Shown: piece by piece, positions 2,515 through 11,232 of the stretch | Numbering within the stretch: position 1 is the stretch's first letter | How the letters are laid out: each line of letters begins with the position of its first letter | DNA from: a virus | Direction: 5' to 3' (one strand) | DNA: 23,855 nucleotides | IMG/VR virus record: IMGVR_UViG_3300035158_000239 | Span: 1-23,855 of that record | The notes under the pieces: generated by a model | What the model saw: the letters and a program-made list of their open reading frames with translations, nothing else | Database searches by the model: none | What the model was told of the DNA's origin: nothing | Program-made: the position numbers and the translations under genes

Positions 2515-3558
2515 TTAGTCCCCGACAACCTGCGTTTTATACGCTATCTTATGATGATTTTCGCAATTTTTGTCCAAAATCTCATTTCCTTGACCCCACT
2601 TTTCAATTATTAAAATCCCATGTCCCAAAATTTCAGGTATCTGCGGAACAACCGCATTTCCTAGTCCTGCAAGTCTGTCCACCCCTTTGGAAAGCCCATT
2701 ATTAATTCTGCGAATGAGGGGTTTAGGTATATCGGGTCTTTTGAAGTAATCCTTAATCCCTCTGACATTTTCGCACCACGAAAATGCTTGCTTCCACGAA
2801 AGCGATTCTGGCTGGATCCCTTGCCCTCGGTCGCACCTATTGTTGGCAAAAGCCCTCTGTGATACAGACGTGTCTGTATGTGTTCTTGGCAACCATTTTC
2901 TTCCCTCACCTGATTCCTGACAGTTCCAGAACCTTGCGCTGTTACTGTTGGCAATAAACCAGATTCTGTCACGTCTATGCGGCGCCCCAACGGCACAAGC
3001 TGGAATAACAAGCGGTTGGCAGTCGTATCCGATTCCTTCAAGGTCTTCACAGATTTTGTTGACAAGCATCTTTTCCTGTCGTGTGTATATTCCACTGAAA
3101 AAGTCGTAGTTCGGACATCTGGAAGCGGCTCTGCTTTCCACCGCAACGTTACCAAATCCGACCCCCATGCTTCGCAAGCCATTAACATTTTCGCCAATAA
3201 CCCAGCGGGCGTTTGTTTCCTCAATAATTCGCAGCATTTCTGGCCAGAGGTAACGGTCGTCTTCCGTTCCAAGTCTTTTTCCTGTGCAGCTGAAGGGTTG
3301 GCATGGGAATCCGCCTGTAACAATGTCAATTGTTCCCCTGTAAATTGATTGTCCGTCATAAAACAGCTCCCCATTTCTATATGATAAAAGCCTTATATCC
3401 TTAGCCAGCGGGACATTTGGCCAATGCTTATTCAAAACCTTGCCTGCAAATTCGTTAATGTCGCAAAAAGCAGCCGTTTCAAAACCGCCAGTGCGTTCCA
3501 GGCCAAGCGAAAAACCGCCAATTCCAGAAAACAGGTCTAAGATTTTAAGTTTTTGCAT
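2515..3558 (-). CDS. dcm: DNA C5-cytosine methyltransferase
   Basis: This enzyme should transfer a methyl group from S-adenosylmethionine to cytosine C5. Motifs appear in the family order: SAM-binding DLFSGIGGFSLGLE (8-21), catalytic GGFPCQPFS with Cys86 (82-90), ENV (123-125), RRDRIW (195-200) and C-terminal GNAVVPQ (300-306). I chose the ATG at 3558 (MQKLK, 347 residues) because AAGGA lies six bases upstream and the longer ORF would add 26 residues before motif I. Residues about 133-165 look like an insertion compared with the usual spacing between the ENV and RRDR motifs. No cognate endonuclease is adjacent, so it may protect the phage against host restriction. A second ORF is nested in another frame and probably constrains the target-recognition region. 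Confidence 0.95.
   Translation of the reverse strand: MQKLKILDLFSGIGGFSLGLERTGGFETAAFCDINEFAGKVLNKHWPNVPLAKDIRLLSYRNGELFYDGQSIYRGTIDIVTGGFPCQPFSCTGKRLGTEDDRYLWPEMLRIIEETNARWVIGENVNGLRSMGVGFGNVAVESRAASRCPNYDFFSGIYTRQEKMLVNKICEDLEGIGYDCQPLVIPACAVGAPHRRDRIWFIANSNSARFWNCQESGEGRKWLPRTHTDTSVSQRAFANNRCDRGQGIQPESLSWKQAFSWCENVRGIKDYFKRPDIPKPLIRRINNGLSKGVDRLAGLGNAVVPQIPEILGHGILIIEKWGQGNEILDKNCENHHKIAYKTQVVGD
2661..3359 (-). CDS. Nested overlapping gene inside the methyltransferase, 232 aa
   Basis: The whole ORF lies within the methyltransferase gene on the same strand in a different frame. GGGGAG seven bases before its ATG (MTDNQFTGEQLTLLQ) gives it a strong ribosome binding site of its own. Recognisable segments are TSGQKCCELL, a W-rich stretch LVTLRWKAEPLP, SRLLFQLVP-like NRLLFQLVPLGRR, GLLPTVTAQG, and the C-terminus LNPSFAELIMGFPKGWTDL. 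From memory, proteins ending NPxxVExxMGFPxGWTxL are common in phages beside Dcm-type methyltransferases, often unnamed or labelled methyltransferase; I could not check this. It has none of the catalytic methyltransferase motifs, so the function is unknown. The tail MGFPKGWTDL reads over the bases that encode NGLSKGVDRLAGLG in the methyltransferase. Confidence 0.65.
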   Translation of the reverse strand: MTDNQFTGEQLTLLQADSHANPSAAQEKDLERKTTVTSGQKCCELLRKQTPAGLLAKMLMACEAWGSDLVTLRWKAEPLPDVRTTTFSVEYTHDRKRCLSTKSVKTLKESDTTANRLLFQLVPLGRRIDVTESGLLPTVTAQGSGTVRNQVREENGCQEHIQTRLYHRGLLPTIGATEGKGSSQNRFRGSKHFRGAKMSEGLRITSKDPIYLNPSFAELIMGFPKGWTDLQD

Positions 3559-3716
3559 TCGTTTCCTTCCGTTCCGCTTAATCATGCTGCTCCAACTATT
3601 TGACCAAGTCAATAGACAAAATAAAAAAAGTTCCATTGACTGTGCAAAAATATTAAATTCCTAACCTTTCACACTAATTCACGCATATGATTTCATGTGA
3701 AATAATCAATTTAAAT
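3559..3716 (-). promoter_or_regulatory. Intergenic control segment upstream of methyltransferase
   Basis: The gap between the ribbon-helix-helix gene and the methyltransferase is AT-rich and non-coding. It holds an imperfect palindrome at 3596-3615 (CTATTTGACCAAGTCAATAG, core TTGAC-CAA-GTCAA) about 38 bases before the methyltransferase start. A second one at 3690-3703 (ATTTCA-TG-TGAAAT) lies near the end of the upstream gene. Each TTGAC could double as a -35 box, but no convincing -10 lies at the right distance. Operator function is inferred. Confidence 0.3.
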
Positions 3717-4372: not shown

Positions 4373-4476
4373 GCTTAGGGTTTTTAGGTTTTTGTGGTGT
4401 AAGAGTATTTTTACAAAAAAATGTGCTTTTTATTCTTTTATATCAACGTCTTACACTCTTACATGACATGGTGTGA
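4357..4476 (+). CDS. Possible small hydrophobic peptide, 39 aa (doubtful)
   Basis: An ORF starting MRIYTRLGFLGFCGVRVF follows AAAGGCGC two bases before its ATG, the same octamer found before the large-terminase start at similar spacing. The product is hydrophobic and could be a single membrane helix. It overlaps palindromes and three of the GTGTRAGA sites, so this stretch is at least as likely to be purely regulatory. Confidence 0.2.
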   Translation: MRIYTRLGFLGFCGVRVFLQKNVLFILLYQRLTLLHDMV

Positions 4477-7530: not shown

Positions 7531-7740
7531 ATGGCACAAAGATTGATTGAAGGGGAAAAAAGAATAACAGACCTTCCGTGTCCGCCAACAGGACAATGCC
7601 AGATGATTGAACAGATGCAGTTCGGTCTTCATTCAATCGAAATCCAGAAAATGGGAATAACTGCTTCCAAGGTTTATGTGCGTGACTATACGCATTGGCA
7701 ACATGCTTTTGATGCGGCAATGGACAAGGCAGGTTTATGA
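7531..7740 (+). CDS. Hypothetical protein between terminase and portal, 69 aa
   Basis: A small soluble protein (MAQRLIEGEKRITDLPCPPT...) starts two bases after the large-terminase stop and overlaps the portal start by four bases (ATGA). Tight packing on both sides strongly suggests a real, coupled gene. It has two cysteines (CPPTGQC) and a helical C-terminus (HAFDAAMDKAGL). I recognise no family; its position suggests a role in packaging or portal assembly. Confidence 0.6.
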   Translation: MAQRLIEGEKRITDLPCPPTGQCQMIEQMQFGLHSIEIQKMGITASKVYVRDYTHWQHAFDAAMDKAGL

Positions 7741-9845
7741 TGAAGTCACGGGATGAAATAGCCAAGCAGTTCAAGCGTCATCTGGATATCTCCAAATCAA
7801 AGCTTGGAAAGCAGTACCGAAACACCAAAAAATGTCAGGCCTTTTATGCTGGTGACTTCATGAAATATGAAGACGCCATAACTGTTTCTGACACTGCCGG
7901 CCGCGCCAAAAAGGTCATGGTTAAATTCAACAAGGTCAAGCCCTATGTCAATGCCGTCAAGGGCTTCATGGCGCAGAACAGGCGCGTTCAGAAATATGAA
8001 GCGCGGATTCAGAACAGCCGCATTCAGGAACTGTTTAGTTCATACGCCAACAGCATTGCCAAATATGTCCGCGACAACGCCGATGCTGACCAGGTTGAAA
8101 CGCAGCAAGACGGTGACTTACTGATTAATGGCTACGGCGCCATTGAAACTGCGCTGTCATATGGCGAAGGTTACGCCACAACGGAAGAAGACGGCCAGTT
8201 TATCTGTGGCAGGCTTGACCCGCTTAGTGTCGGATGGGATCCGTATGCGAAGGCAACAAACCTTCTGGGTGCCAGGTGGGTTTATTCCTGCAAGGAATAT
8301 CACATTGATGATGCCAAGTTGCTGTTTGATGACAACAATGAAGAACATTTTGAAGAAGCCGAAACGGATGACGCAACGGCCCATGAATATTTCCCGAATG
8401 GCGGAAGCTATGACAAAATAGCGCCTTACGATTATGCCAACAAAGAAGACAACATGGTAAAGGTTTACTTTTACCAGTGGTACGATATTGAACCATACTT
8501 TAAGGTAGCCAATCCCCTTTACCAACTCCAAGACCCGCAAGCCGTCCAGTTCGCAGATATCTTTTTGCAAGGTCTGGCGCAGGAAGCAGATGGTGAATTT
8601 GACCCGCGCGCGGAACTGTTGACGTTCGGAACAGACCTGAAGGCAAAGCTGGAAGAATATTTTGGTGATTTCCTCGGAGAAGTGTTTGAGTTCAAGCGCA
8701 AGGTTTTCTATACCGCCGTTATCAGCGGCGAACACGTTTTCACGGCCTATAAATCAATATCACAGCAAGGCTTCACGATTCAGTTCAAGACAGGTGATTA
8801 TGATGCCGTGAATAATATCTGGACAGGCCTGGTCAATTCCATGATGGAACCAGGCCTGTATTACAACAAGGCGCTTACTGAATTGATGTTTACGATTGCA
8901 GCCAATTCCAAGGGTGGCGTTTATGTGGAAGAAGACGCGGTTGACGATATCGCTGAATTTGAACACAACTATGGCAAGACGGACGGCGTTGTTAAGGTCA
9001 ATCCTGGCGCGCTGGCTGCTGGCAAAATTCAGGACAAGAAAAGTCCGCATGTTCCAACTGGCCTTGACCAAATCGTTAATATCGCAGACCAAGCCCTTCC
9101 TGATGTAAACGGCATTGACCCTTCATTTCTCGGAACGCGCGAATTTGCCAATGACACTTATGCCTACCAGCGCGCGCGTATCAAGCGTGTCATGTCAGTT
9201 CTGGCCTGCTATTTTGATGCTGCCAAGCTTTACAGCAAGCGCAATGCCAGAATCATGCTGGATTTGATGAAGGTGTTTGTCCAGAACAATGAGAACATGA
9301 CGATTCGCGTTGTTGGTGAACAAGGGCAGGCTATGTTTTTACGCCTGTCCGAAAAGCAGCTTTCCGCTGAATATGACGTCCAGACCGAAGAAGCGCCGCT
9401 GTCTGCTGAAGACAAACAGGAACAGGCAGGCGTTCTGTCTGGTATCGGCGACAAGCTTATTATGGCCGATCCTGTTGCGGCAAAAACCATGTATGGCATG
9501 GCAGTTGAATTGATGCCGCTGGACTTCAGCATGAAGGAACGCGCGCTTCAGGTTCTTAAACCGAAAGAAGGCGAAATTGACCCTGCTTATGTCCAGCAGC
9601 TTGAAGCGCAGGTTAAGGCGCTGATGGATGCAGGCAGACAGGCGCAGTTGCAGAAAACCATTGCTGATGCTGAATTGACACTGGCGCGCGCGGAAGAAGC
9701 CAAGCGTAAAACAAGCAAGGTTGATGCTGATATTGCTAAAACACAGGCTGAAACTGTTGAAACTTTGGAAGACAGTGAACAAAGAAGCCTTGAAAATGAA
9801 GCAATTAAACGGTCTAATGTTACAGACGTGCGAATTGTCTTGTAA
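7737..9845 (+). CDS. Portal protein (P22-like)
   Basis: The 702-residue protein would form the dodecameric ring at the capsid vertex through which DNA enters and leaves. Its large size, N-terminal region (KVKPYVNAVKGFMAQNRR, then YGAIETALSYGEGY and RLDPLSVGWDPYAK) and position directly after the terminase fit the P22 gp1-type portals of podoviruses. The last 100 residues (VQQLEAQVKALMDAGRQAQL onward) are a long charged helix resembling the C-terminal barrel of P22 portal. The start overlaps the preceding gene in ATGATG, so either of two adjacent Met codons may be used. Confidence 0.88.
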   Translation: MMKSRDEIAKQFKRHLDISKSKLGKQYRNTKKCQAFYAGDFMKYEDAITVSDTAGRAKKVMVKFNKVKPYVNAVKGFMAQNRRVQKYEARIQNSRIQELFSSYANSIAKYVRDNADADQVETQQDGDLLINGYGAIETALSYGEGYATTEEDGQFICGRLDPLSVGWDPYAKATNLLGARWVYSCKEYHIDDAKLLFDDNNEEHFEEAETDDATAHEYFPNGGSYDKIAPYDYANKEDNMVKVYFYQWYDIEPYFKVANPLYQLQDPQAVQFADIFLQGLAQEADGEFDPRAELLTFGTDLKAKLEEYFGDFLGEVFEFKRKVFYTAVISGEHVFTAYKSISQQGFTIQFKTGDYDAVNNIWTGLVNSMMEPGLYYNKALTELMFTIAANSKGGVYVEEDAVDDIAEFEHNYGKTDGVVKVNPGALAAGKIQDKKSPHVPTGLDQIVNIADQALPDVNGIDPSFLGTREFANDTYAYQRARIKRVMSVLACYFDAAKLYSKRNARIMLDLMKVFVQNNENMTIRVVGEQGQAMFLRLSEKQLSAEYDVQTEEAPLSAEDKQEQAGVLSGIGDKLIMADPVAAKTMYGMAVELMPLDFSMKERALQVLKPKEGEIDPAYVQQLEAQVKALMDAGRQAQLQKTIADAELTLARAEEAKRKTSKVDADIAKTQAETVETLEDSEQRSLENEAIKRSNVTDVRIVL

Positions 9846-9868
9846 AAACAAACAGAAAGGATCGACAA

Positions 9869-10174
9869 ATGCTTACCAATGAAGAACTGCAACGCAAACT
9901 GTCACAGTCACCAGCACCGCGCGTGACCGAAGAACTGATTGAAAGCCGCATTACTGACACGCGGTTTGAACGTTTCTCTGAAACTGTCACTGTCTGCGAA
10001 ATCAAGCTGGACAATGGGTATTCCGTGCGCGGCGAATCGGCCTGCGTAAATCCTGAAAATTACAATCAGGAAATTGGAGAAAAGATTGCTTATGATAACG
10101 CATTCAACAAGCTTTGGCCGCTGTTTGGCTTCTTGCTTGCTGAAGGCAATCATATTGAAAAGCAAGCTGCATAA
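9869..10174 (+). CDS. Gp49-family phage protein (N4 gp49 / Sf6 gene 66)
   Basis: This 101-residue protein has the pattern of the Gp49 family: an RITDTRFERF lead-in, VTVCEIKLDNGYSVRGESAC, then NPENYNQEIGEKIAYDNAFN and KLWPLFGFLLAE. AGAAAGGA eight bases upstream is an unusually good ribosome binding site. The biochemical role of the family is not established. Here it sits between portal and scaffold genes, and the gap after it contains the solitary CRISPR repeat. Confidence 0.8.
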   Translation: MLTNEELQRKLSQSPAPRVTEELIESRITDTRFERFSETVTVCEIKLDNGYSVRGESACVNPENYNQEIGEKIAYDNAFNKLWPLFGFLLAEGNHIEKQAA

Positions 10175-10213
10175 CCCACGCGAAAAGGGGAAGGCCTTGA
10201 AACAAAGCCATAC

Positions 10214-10245
10214 GTCGCCCCCCATGCGGGGGCGTGGATTGAAAC
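10214..10245 (+). CRISPR. Solitary type I-C CRISPR repeat (candidate RNA anti-CRISPR)
   Basis: A complete 32-nt repeat starts GTCGCCCCCC and ends GTGGATTGAAAC, the signature of type I-C repeats; as I recall, the Desulfovibrio vulgaris I-C repeat differs by a single base in the loop region. CGCCCCC (10216-10222) and GGGGGCG (10228-10234) form a 7-bp stem with loop CATGC. The remaining 11 bases TGGATTGAAAC (10235-10245) equal the 5' handle left by Cas5d cleavage at the stem base. No second repeat lies at spacer distance and no cas gene is in the window. It lies in the 113-base gap between the Gp49-family and scaffold genes, in the sense of late transcription. Phage solitary repeats that act by mimicking crRNA are known as Racrs. 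No separate sigma70-type promoter is clear upstream, so it may be cut from the operon transcript. Confidence 0.88.
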
Positions 10246-10258
10246 CCCGCCATTTTTT
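10226..10258 (+). terminator. Terminator-like hairpin overlapping the CRISPR repeat
   Basis: GCGGGG (10226-10231), inside the right half of the repeat, can pair with CCCCGC (10245-10250), which begins at the last repeat base. The loop is 13 bases, and CA then TTTTTT (10253-10258) follow. This has the form of an intrinsic terminator and would end a short repeat RNA just 13 bases after the handle. The pairing is exclusive with the 7-bp CRISPR stem, which has a tighter loop and forms first, so efficiency is uncertain. Confidence 0.45.
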
Positions 10259-10287: not shown

Positions 10288-11232
10288 ATGGGACTAGAAG
10301 AGCAGATTAAAAAAGAAGAAGAAGAATTGGAAAAGCTGGCCAAAGCTGAAGAAGAAGGCCAAGACCATAAAGACGATGATAAGGCTGACGCGGCTGAAGA
10401 AGCCGATGCCGGCGAGTCTGAACAGGGCGAAGAAGAAACCGATTCCGAAAAACAGGATGATGACAAAGCCGCTGAAAAAGACGGCGAAGAAGATCCTGAC
10501 AAGGAAGATGGTGATGACGAAAAAGAAAAGGACGGCAAGGGCAAAGATGACAAATCAGACAACAGCCTTGCCGCACAGTTGCGGATTGAGCGCAAGCAGC
10601 GCAAGCAACTGGAAGAGCGGCTTGAAGCAGTGGAGCGCCAGCCTGAAAAAGAACGGGACGGAAAGCAGCGGTCCACAGAAAAAGAACTGACTGCTGAAGA
10701 ACGTCTTGACCAGATGGAAGCTGAACGCGAAACAGAACGTCTGCGCAATCAGGCAATCAATGAATTTAACGAAATTGAAGCCGAATTTGCCAAAGAAACG
10801 CCTGATTATGAGCCCGCCAGCGCGCATATGATTAAAAACATGATTCAGGGCATGATGTATGCAAACCCTGCAATCAGCCAGCGTCAGGCCATTGCTGTTG
10901 CACAAAATCAGGTTTTGCAAATCGCAGCGCGCGCCGCGGCCAAAGGGCTTAATCCTGCCGAAACACTGTATAACATGGCTTTTGAACGTTATGGTTACCA
11001 GCCGCAAGCTGGCGGCGGTGATGGCAAAGACAAAGGCGCATCCGCCAAAGCTGAAGCCGAAAGGCTGAAGAAAATCCAGCAGAACAAGAAACGTTCTGCT
11101 TCAGCATTAGCAGGTGGTGGACAAAGCGGCACCGCTACTGTAACATTAGAAGAAGCTGGCAAGATGGATCTTGGTTCATTTTCAAACCTTTCTGAAGCTG
11201 AAATTGACCAAATGATTGCTGATGCAGGCTAA
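10288..11232 (+). CDS. Capsid scaffolding protein
   Basis: The 314-residue product is extremely charged. Residues 1-90 are dominated by E, D and K with almost no hydrophobics. Residues about 93-165 form a coiled coil (RIERKQRKQLEERLEAVER onward). The C-terminal half is helical with an alanine- and glycine-rich segment, and the protein ends with SEAEIDQMIADAG. Position directly before the major capsid gene and this composition are typical of scaffolds that shape the prohead and then leave or are degraded. AAAGGCGC lies six bases before the ATG. The long antisense ORF opposite its acidic part is serine-rich, a mirror of the codon bias and not a gene. Confidence 0.82.
   Translation: MGLEEQIKKEEEELEKLAKAEEEGQDHKDDDKADAAEEADAGESEQGEEETDSEKQDDDKAAEKDGEEDPDKEDGDDEKEKDGKGKDDKSDNSLAAQLRIERKQRKQLEERLEAVERQPEKERDGKQRSTEKELTAEERLDQMEAERETERLRNQAINEFNEIEAEFAKETPDYEPASAHMIKNMIQGMMYANPAISQRQAIAVAQNQVLQIAARAAAKGLNPAETLYNMAFERYGYQPQAGGGDGKDKGASAKAEAERLKKIQQNKKRSASALAGGGQSGTATVTLEEAGKMDLGSFSNLSEAEIDQMIADAG

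Follow-up and report, generated by a model that had tools for sequence, protein, structure and literature searches.

We identified in the virus record IMGVR_UViG_3300035158_000239 of IMG/VR (positions 1 to 23,855; this whole stretch of 23,855 nucleotides is the window of our analysis) a solitary type I-C CRISPR (clustered regularly interspaced short palindromic repeats) repeat unit at positions 10214-10245 of the + strand. The element is probably a type I-C RNA anti-CRISPR (Racr), and would constitute the second half of a two-part cassette headed by a gene for an Acb4-type sponge. We favour this reading because the repeat is solitary, intergenic, in sense and an exact I-C repeat, and stands beside an Acb4 homologue in an inserted cassette. 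An initial annotation of this DNA had already proposed the repeat as a Racr candidate, a proposal supported here by the match to working I-C repeats, by the solitary, intergenic and in-sense position, and by the neighbouring homologue of a protein directed against CBASS (the cyclic oligonucleotide-based antiphage signalling system).

The bases 10214-10245 read GTCGCCCCCCATGCGGGGGCGTGGATTGAAAC, letter for letter, and this sequence has a single copy in the 23,855-base record even when up to 3 mismatches are allowed. Folded alone as RNA, the repeat forms a 7-bp stem (5' arm at 10216-10222, 3' arm at 10228-10234), a 5-nt loop (10223-10227) and an unpaired 11-nt handle, UGGAUUGAAAC (10235-10245), all on the + strand, with a folding energy of -15.1 kcal/mol; the intact stem, loop and handle described by the annotation are thus borne out by the RNA fold. 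In type I-C Cascade (the CRISPR-associated complex for antiviral defence) the handle becomes the 5' handle of the CRISPR RNA (crRNA) and is clamped by Cas5c and Cas7 (PMC7684278). From known type I-C processing, the cut by Cas5c (Cas5d) is predicted at the 3' base of the stem, between 10234 and 10235. The repeat lies between the open reading frames (ORFs) 9869-10174 and 10288-11232, with no overlapping gene on the + strand, and has the same strand as the surrounding operon. Since the best flanking match to a second repeat within 120 nt reached only 16/32 (upstream; 13/32 downstream), the repeat counts as solitary, as had been annotated, and a degenerate mini-array was ruled out. Like viral CRISPR mini-arrays (repeat-spacer-repeat) it is a virus-borne CRISPR repeat without cas genes, but it consists of a single repeat with no degenerate second one, and the adjacent sequence has no identified target.

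By sequence, a racr should match a known CRISPR repeat by at least 90% along at least 90% of its length, be intergenic, lack cas genes and have no other repeat, complete or partial (>70%), in the surrounding 100 bp; a racr is further expected to be transcribed as or into a small RNA, to face a host system of its own subtype and to inhibit the cognate CRISPR interference. The repeat of the window matches the arrays of sequenced genomes at 100% over 32 nt; it is intergenic and solitary, and no cas families were detected among the scanned window proteins, in agreement with the annotation. Its hairpin and ATTGAAAC-type handle, together with the linkage of such repeats to cas5c, cas7c and cas8c, place it in type I-C. 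An Rfam search of the repeat gave no match, and blastn of the bare repeat against named phages, a search of low sensitivity with so short a query, returned no match over most of its length.

The exact 32-mer was found in 36 bacterial contigs from a one-genome-per-species collection, belonging to Desulfobacterota, Alphaproteobacteria, Magnetococcales, Nitrospirota, Bacteroidales and others. Most of the 36 hold genuine arrays; where at least two copies are present the spacers measure 33-36 nt, with few exceptions, and in one contig (L094) an array of identical repeats adjoins a complete type I-C operon, cas5c-cas8c-cas7c-cas4-cas1c. By an arithmetic estimate, a 24-kb sequence would match one of the ~18,000 known 32-mer repeats by chance with a probability of the order of 1e-10, and a chance resemblance to I-C repeats is excluded. 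A separate observation concerns Magnetococcales bacterium ER1bin7 (contig L085, ~4435-4468), in which an array built of the identical repeat contains a spacer whose reverse complement is almost I-C repeat-like (TCGCCCCCCCATGGGGGGGCGTTGATT); it could derive from a phage solitary repeat or be an artefact of the array.

The gene preceding the repeat, separated from it by 39 nt, occupies positions 9869-10174 (+), encodes 101 aa and is a firm member of the PF13876 (Phage_gp49_66) or Acb4 family according to Pfam, PDB and Foldseek. The match to PF13876 has an E-value of 5.5e-24 and 84.9 bits, against a curated cut-off of 27, and the sequence also matches the solved Acb4 chain of PDB 9e4w (E 5e-5). 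The structural model is of high confidence (predicted local distance difference test, pLDDT, 93.7), and all 13 Foldseek matches below 1e-3 were Acb4, the top one being 9e4w with a template modelling (TM) score of 0.60-0.73, while the next fold appeared at an E-value of 0.017. PF13876 is the family of Acb4, its founding member, which acts as a sponge for the cyclic nucleotides of CBASS; all eight of the homologues examined bound 3'3'-cGAMP (cyclic GMP-AMP), and SPO1 Acb4 binds cyclic dinucleotides and blocks CBASS (PMC11722364). When the pocket residues of SPO1 Acb4 were mapped through the ungapped alignment with 9e4w, those of the adenine pocket were identical (N63 to N66 and I66 to I69) and the stacking positions remained aromatic (F48 to Y51 and F62 to Y65). 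With the family and the fold in common, the product of the acb4-like gene is a putative anti-CBASS sponge homologue. The annotation had described this neighbour as a Gp49-family gene; the family assignment stood, while the neutral context did not, given that the gene is a homologue of anti-CBASS Acb4.

The acb4-like gene, the 39 nt and the repeat span positions 9846-10252 (+), with an approximate right edge. On the left lies the portal gene (7737-9845, +; PF16510 P22_portal, E 1.4e-58) and on the right a probable scaffold gene (10288-11232, +), whose product had no Pfam or PHROG match, whose counterpart in relatives is 45-48% identical and which precedes the gene for the coat protein (Phage_capsid_3). 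Neither the acb4-like gene nor the repeat is present in six close relatives with 78-84% identical coat proteins (L072, L073, L074, L113, L114 and L115) or in three distant ones (L121, L122 and L123), and in all nine the distance from the portal stop to the scaffold start spans about 20-40 nt. Because these nine relatives run from portal to scaffold without gene and repeat, we consider the stretch from 9846 to ~10252 a gained cassette; homology with the relatives restarts at ~10253, where the window has TTTTTTAACCAAAC and L073 has TATTTAACCAAAC. Judged by this comparison, gene and repeat are a single putative acb4-repeat anti-defence cassette between two head genes, and its absence from the nine relatives is as expected of accessory counter-defence cargo. 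Drift of the stem or handle in relatives keeping the gap, which the annotation had offered as a refutation, is inapplicable here, the relatives being without the whole insertion. In two other relatives (L120 and L124) the same junction carries ~2.7 kb of repetitive ORFs of structural type, collagen-like and glycine-rich, and the portal-scaffold junction may be a recurrent insertion site.

Next to this single case stand the solitary I-C repeats of other viruses. A degenerate I-C pattern retrieved 70 stretches in viral contigs, with additional ones under a looser pattern, and removal of arrays and duplicates left 68 solitary repeats. All seven stem pairs were kept in 65 of the 68, where changes in one arm are matched by changes in the other, compared with a mean of 22 and a maximum of 32 repeats when partners were shuffled (2000 shuffles); the search pattern itself fixed only three of the seven pairs. 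Because the pairs of host repeats vary too, this pairing is as much a sign of accurate mimicry as of selection in phages. The repeats were intergenic in 42 of 66 cases, compared with 10% for randomly chosen positions (P 2e-25), and in sense with both neighbours by 30 to 6 (P 7e-5), both counts coming from a simple, crude codon-based gene caller; a few contigs in the class (e.g. L175) bear CRISPR loci themselves. As a class, viral I-C solitary repeats behave like functional RNAs in position, orientation and pairing. No known anti-CRISPR (Acr) families were seen among the 25 most frequent families of the 147 neighbours of these repeats. A Cas5-like neighbour in L175 was discounted since this large contig, with a CRISPR array and a Cas7-like gene, is no true solitary case; at 113 kb, and combining an I-C-type array with genes resembling cas5 and cas7, the viral contig L175 is a possible phage-borne CRISPR system in its own right.

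Further observations were made on members of the class. The nearly identical phages L020 and L057 share an I-C solitary repeat of identical sequence and, with its end 24 nt ahead of that repeat, a near-consensus promoter (TTGACA-N18-TATGGT); the two differ by an indel of ~80 nt whose start coincides exactly with the repeat's 3' end. In some phages, two or three I-C repeats of identical sequence are scattered over kilobases (L003/L005, L011/L042 and L012/L013). In contig 3300031673_000079, which holds L003 and L005, the two repeat copies also have ~22 nt upstream in common.

An I-C repeat is able to work as a Racr, as RacrIC1 proves: this element inhibits type I-C and forms, together with acrIC5, a transcript of two parts (Camara-Wilpert et al. 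2023, PMC10651486). The same study reported racr candidates to be enriched near acr genes. The repeat of the window resembles RacrIC1 in being a solitary type I-C repeat of a phage genome located directly downstream of an anti-defence gene. It differs in that RacrIC1 follows acrIC5 in a Bifidobacterium prophage and has demonstrated activity, while here the partner is an acb4 homologue, the element is a candidate racr only and the site lies between the portal and scaffold genes of a P22-like podovirus. The I-C instance that the initial annotation held to be new is therefore not a novelty, RacrIC1 having been published already (PMC10651486).

Based on the known type I-C pathway, we propose how the cassette could work. 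Type I-C works without a Cas6; it is Cas5c that cleaves the repeat, retains the 11-nt 5' handle and, with Cas7, nucleates Cascade, and the Cas5c-Cas7-crRNA complex nucleated on the handle is stable without Cas8c (PMC7684278). The repeat is likely transcribed together with the acb4-like gene, as RacrIC1 is with acrIC5, since the region just upstream lacks a strong promoter. Given a host whose I-C system matches, Cas5c would bind the hairpin and cut at its 3' base; for type I-C, the Cas5d target named by the annotation is the right one to infer. The downstream piece would then start with the authentic 11-nt 5' handle and continue as phage mRNA (CCCGCCAUUUUUUAACC...), and Cas5c and Cas7 would nucleate on that handle into a dummy Cascade lacking any useful guide, leaving fewer host crRNAs to be turned into working effectors. 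This dummy-crRNA step is modelled on what is known of type I-C assembly. Acb4 would meanwhile bind CBASS cyclic nucleotides, and the cassette could thus cover two host defences. The likeness to RacrIF1 is that of a solitary repeat serving as an RNA decoy which the host crRNA endonuclease binds and cuts (PMC10651486); RacrIF1, however, works via the upstream piece without a 5' handle, which collects Cas6f and Cas7f. Because RacrIF1 acts through that handle-less piece, the I-C route may differ, and the downstream piece with its 5' handle seems here the likelier trap for Cas5c and Cas7. Only tentatively do we suggest that one transcript gives two unrelated blockers, one a protein against CBASS and the other an RNA anti-CRISPR, and that the mRNA cut by Cas5c, its downstream piece bearing a genuine 5' handle, acts as a dummy crRNA trapping Cas5c and Cas7 in a way unlike RacrIF1.

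Several results weigh against a Racr function in such a cassette. Residues K36, E49, Y57 and T70 of the SPO1 Acb4 pocket are replaced in the acb4-like protein, the guanine-recognition residues K36 and E49 being Thr and Ser. The best sigma-70-like promoter match close upstream of the repeat was 8/12, which makes no convincing promoter, and the location within the head-gene region suggests that the repeat is expressed late, at a stage when an anti-CRISPR is of less use. The hairpin forms at 77-87% in two transcript contexts and at just 22% in a third. The PF13876 gene was present in none of the 49 other records with I-C repeats. With respect to the host, the coat protein had no match in 385 genomes from the class of a repeat-bearing alphaproteobacterium or in 297 from the phylum of a repeat-bearing deltaproteobacterium, though these searches had no positive control and their empty outcome shows little; comparison of spacers with the phage gave short, chance-level matches only and none that was convincing. 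Finally, the cassette has no counterpart in any relative against which selection on this copy could be gauged, and its intactness may equal youth. The initial annotation had taken intactness to show selection, which it does not do alone: a recent acquisition would look intact too, and no relative carries the element.

This last point is also the ground on which the best-surviving alternative stands, namely that the repeat was captured recently from a host array by illegitimate recombination, has no function and is intact since it is young. Exact identity with host repeats and absence from all relatives fit such a recent gain, as does the lack of a promoter of its own. A passive capture would, however, have had to arrive with an anti-CBASS homologue or land precisely beside it, intergenic and in sense, and it predicts none of the non-random position, orientation and pairing of the viral I-C solitary repeats as a class. 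We regard it as unlikely.

Smaller still is the chance that the repeat serves as a Cas5c-dependent processing or regulatory site, at which the late mRNA is cut between acb4 and scaffold or from which the downstream sequence is used as a guide. The repeat does lie within an operon, where Cas5c should cut, and the authors of the Racr study noted that repeat-like sequences can mediate Cas-dependent repression (PMC10651486). Against this, the relatives run the same genes without the repeat, the 36 nt downstream of it have no meaningful match in the compared viral or bacterial loci that would speak for a guide, and cutting itself would follow from the decoy model as well. It is very improbable that the repeat is an integration or recombination site with host CRISPR arrays, an attachment-like core: no integrase was found among the scanned window proteins, though the record may be a fragment and an integrase could lie elsewhere, and insertion at this location inside the head operon would separate the portal gene from the scaffold gene. 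That the element is a common mRNA hairpin or a terminator merely resembling an I-C repeat is hardly credible, for although a strong G+C hairpin does stand between two genes, it was not called as a terminator, its stem is not immediately followed by a run of T, and its 11-nt handle and entire 32-mer are identical to I-C repeats.

Under the preferred reading of the element as a type I-C Racr, the known and the new can be separated. The 2023 study reported more than 2,000 solitary repeats of viruses and included a survey of IMG/VR3 (PMC10651486), and this contig itself may already be among them. A racr of type I-C is already known, while its partnership with acb4 is unreported in the literature searched, in which we found no paper treating both Acb4 and RNA anti-CRISPRs. 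The pairing was rejected as a recurrent module and is a single case, considering the count of 0/49 given above and the absence of an I-C repeat from all 37 acb4 loci (0/37). Our analysis contributes a further racr candidate of type I-C with good support, and since it travels with an anti-CBASS homologue as one insertion, phages may gain counter-defences against different immune systems together. Genes beside solitary repeats are a possible route to unrecognised anti-defence genes, and the I-C case raises the mechanistic question of whether the trap is the piece preceding the cut, as in I-F, or the handle on the piece following it.

Elsewhere in the window, a complete C5 DNA methyltransferase gene (phrog_363, E 2e-69) occupies positions 2515-3636 of the - strand. 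A 237-aa ORF at 2661-3374 (-), matching a different phage methyltransferase family (phrog_1008, E 2e-20), lies wholly inside this gene in another frame of the same strand, an apparent case of nested dual coding.
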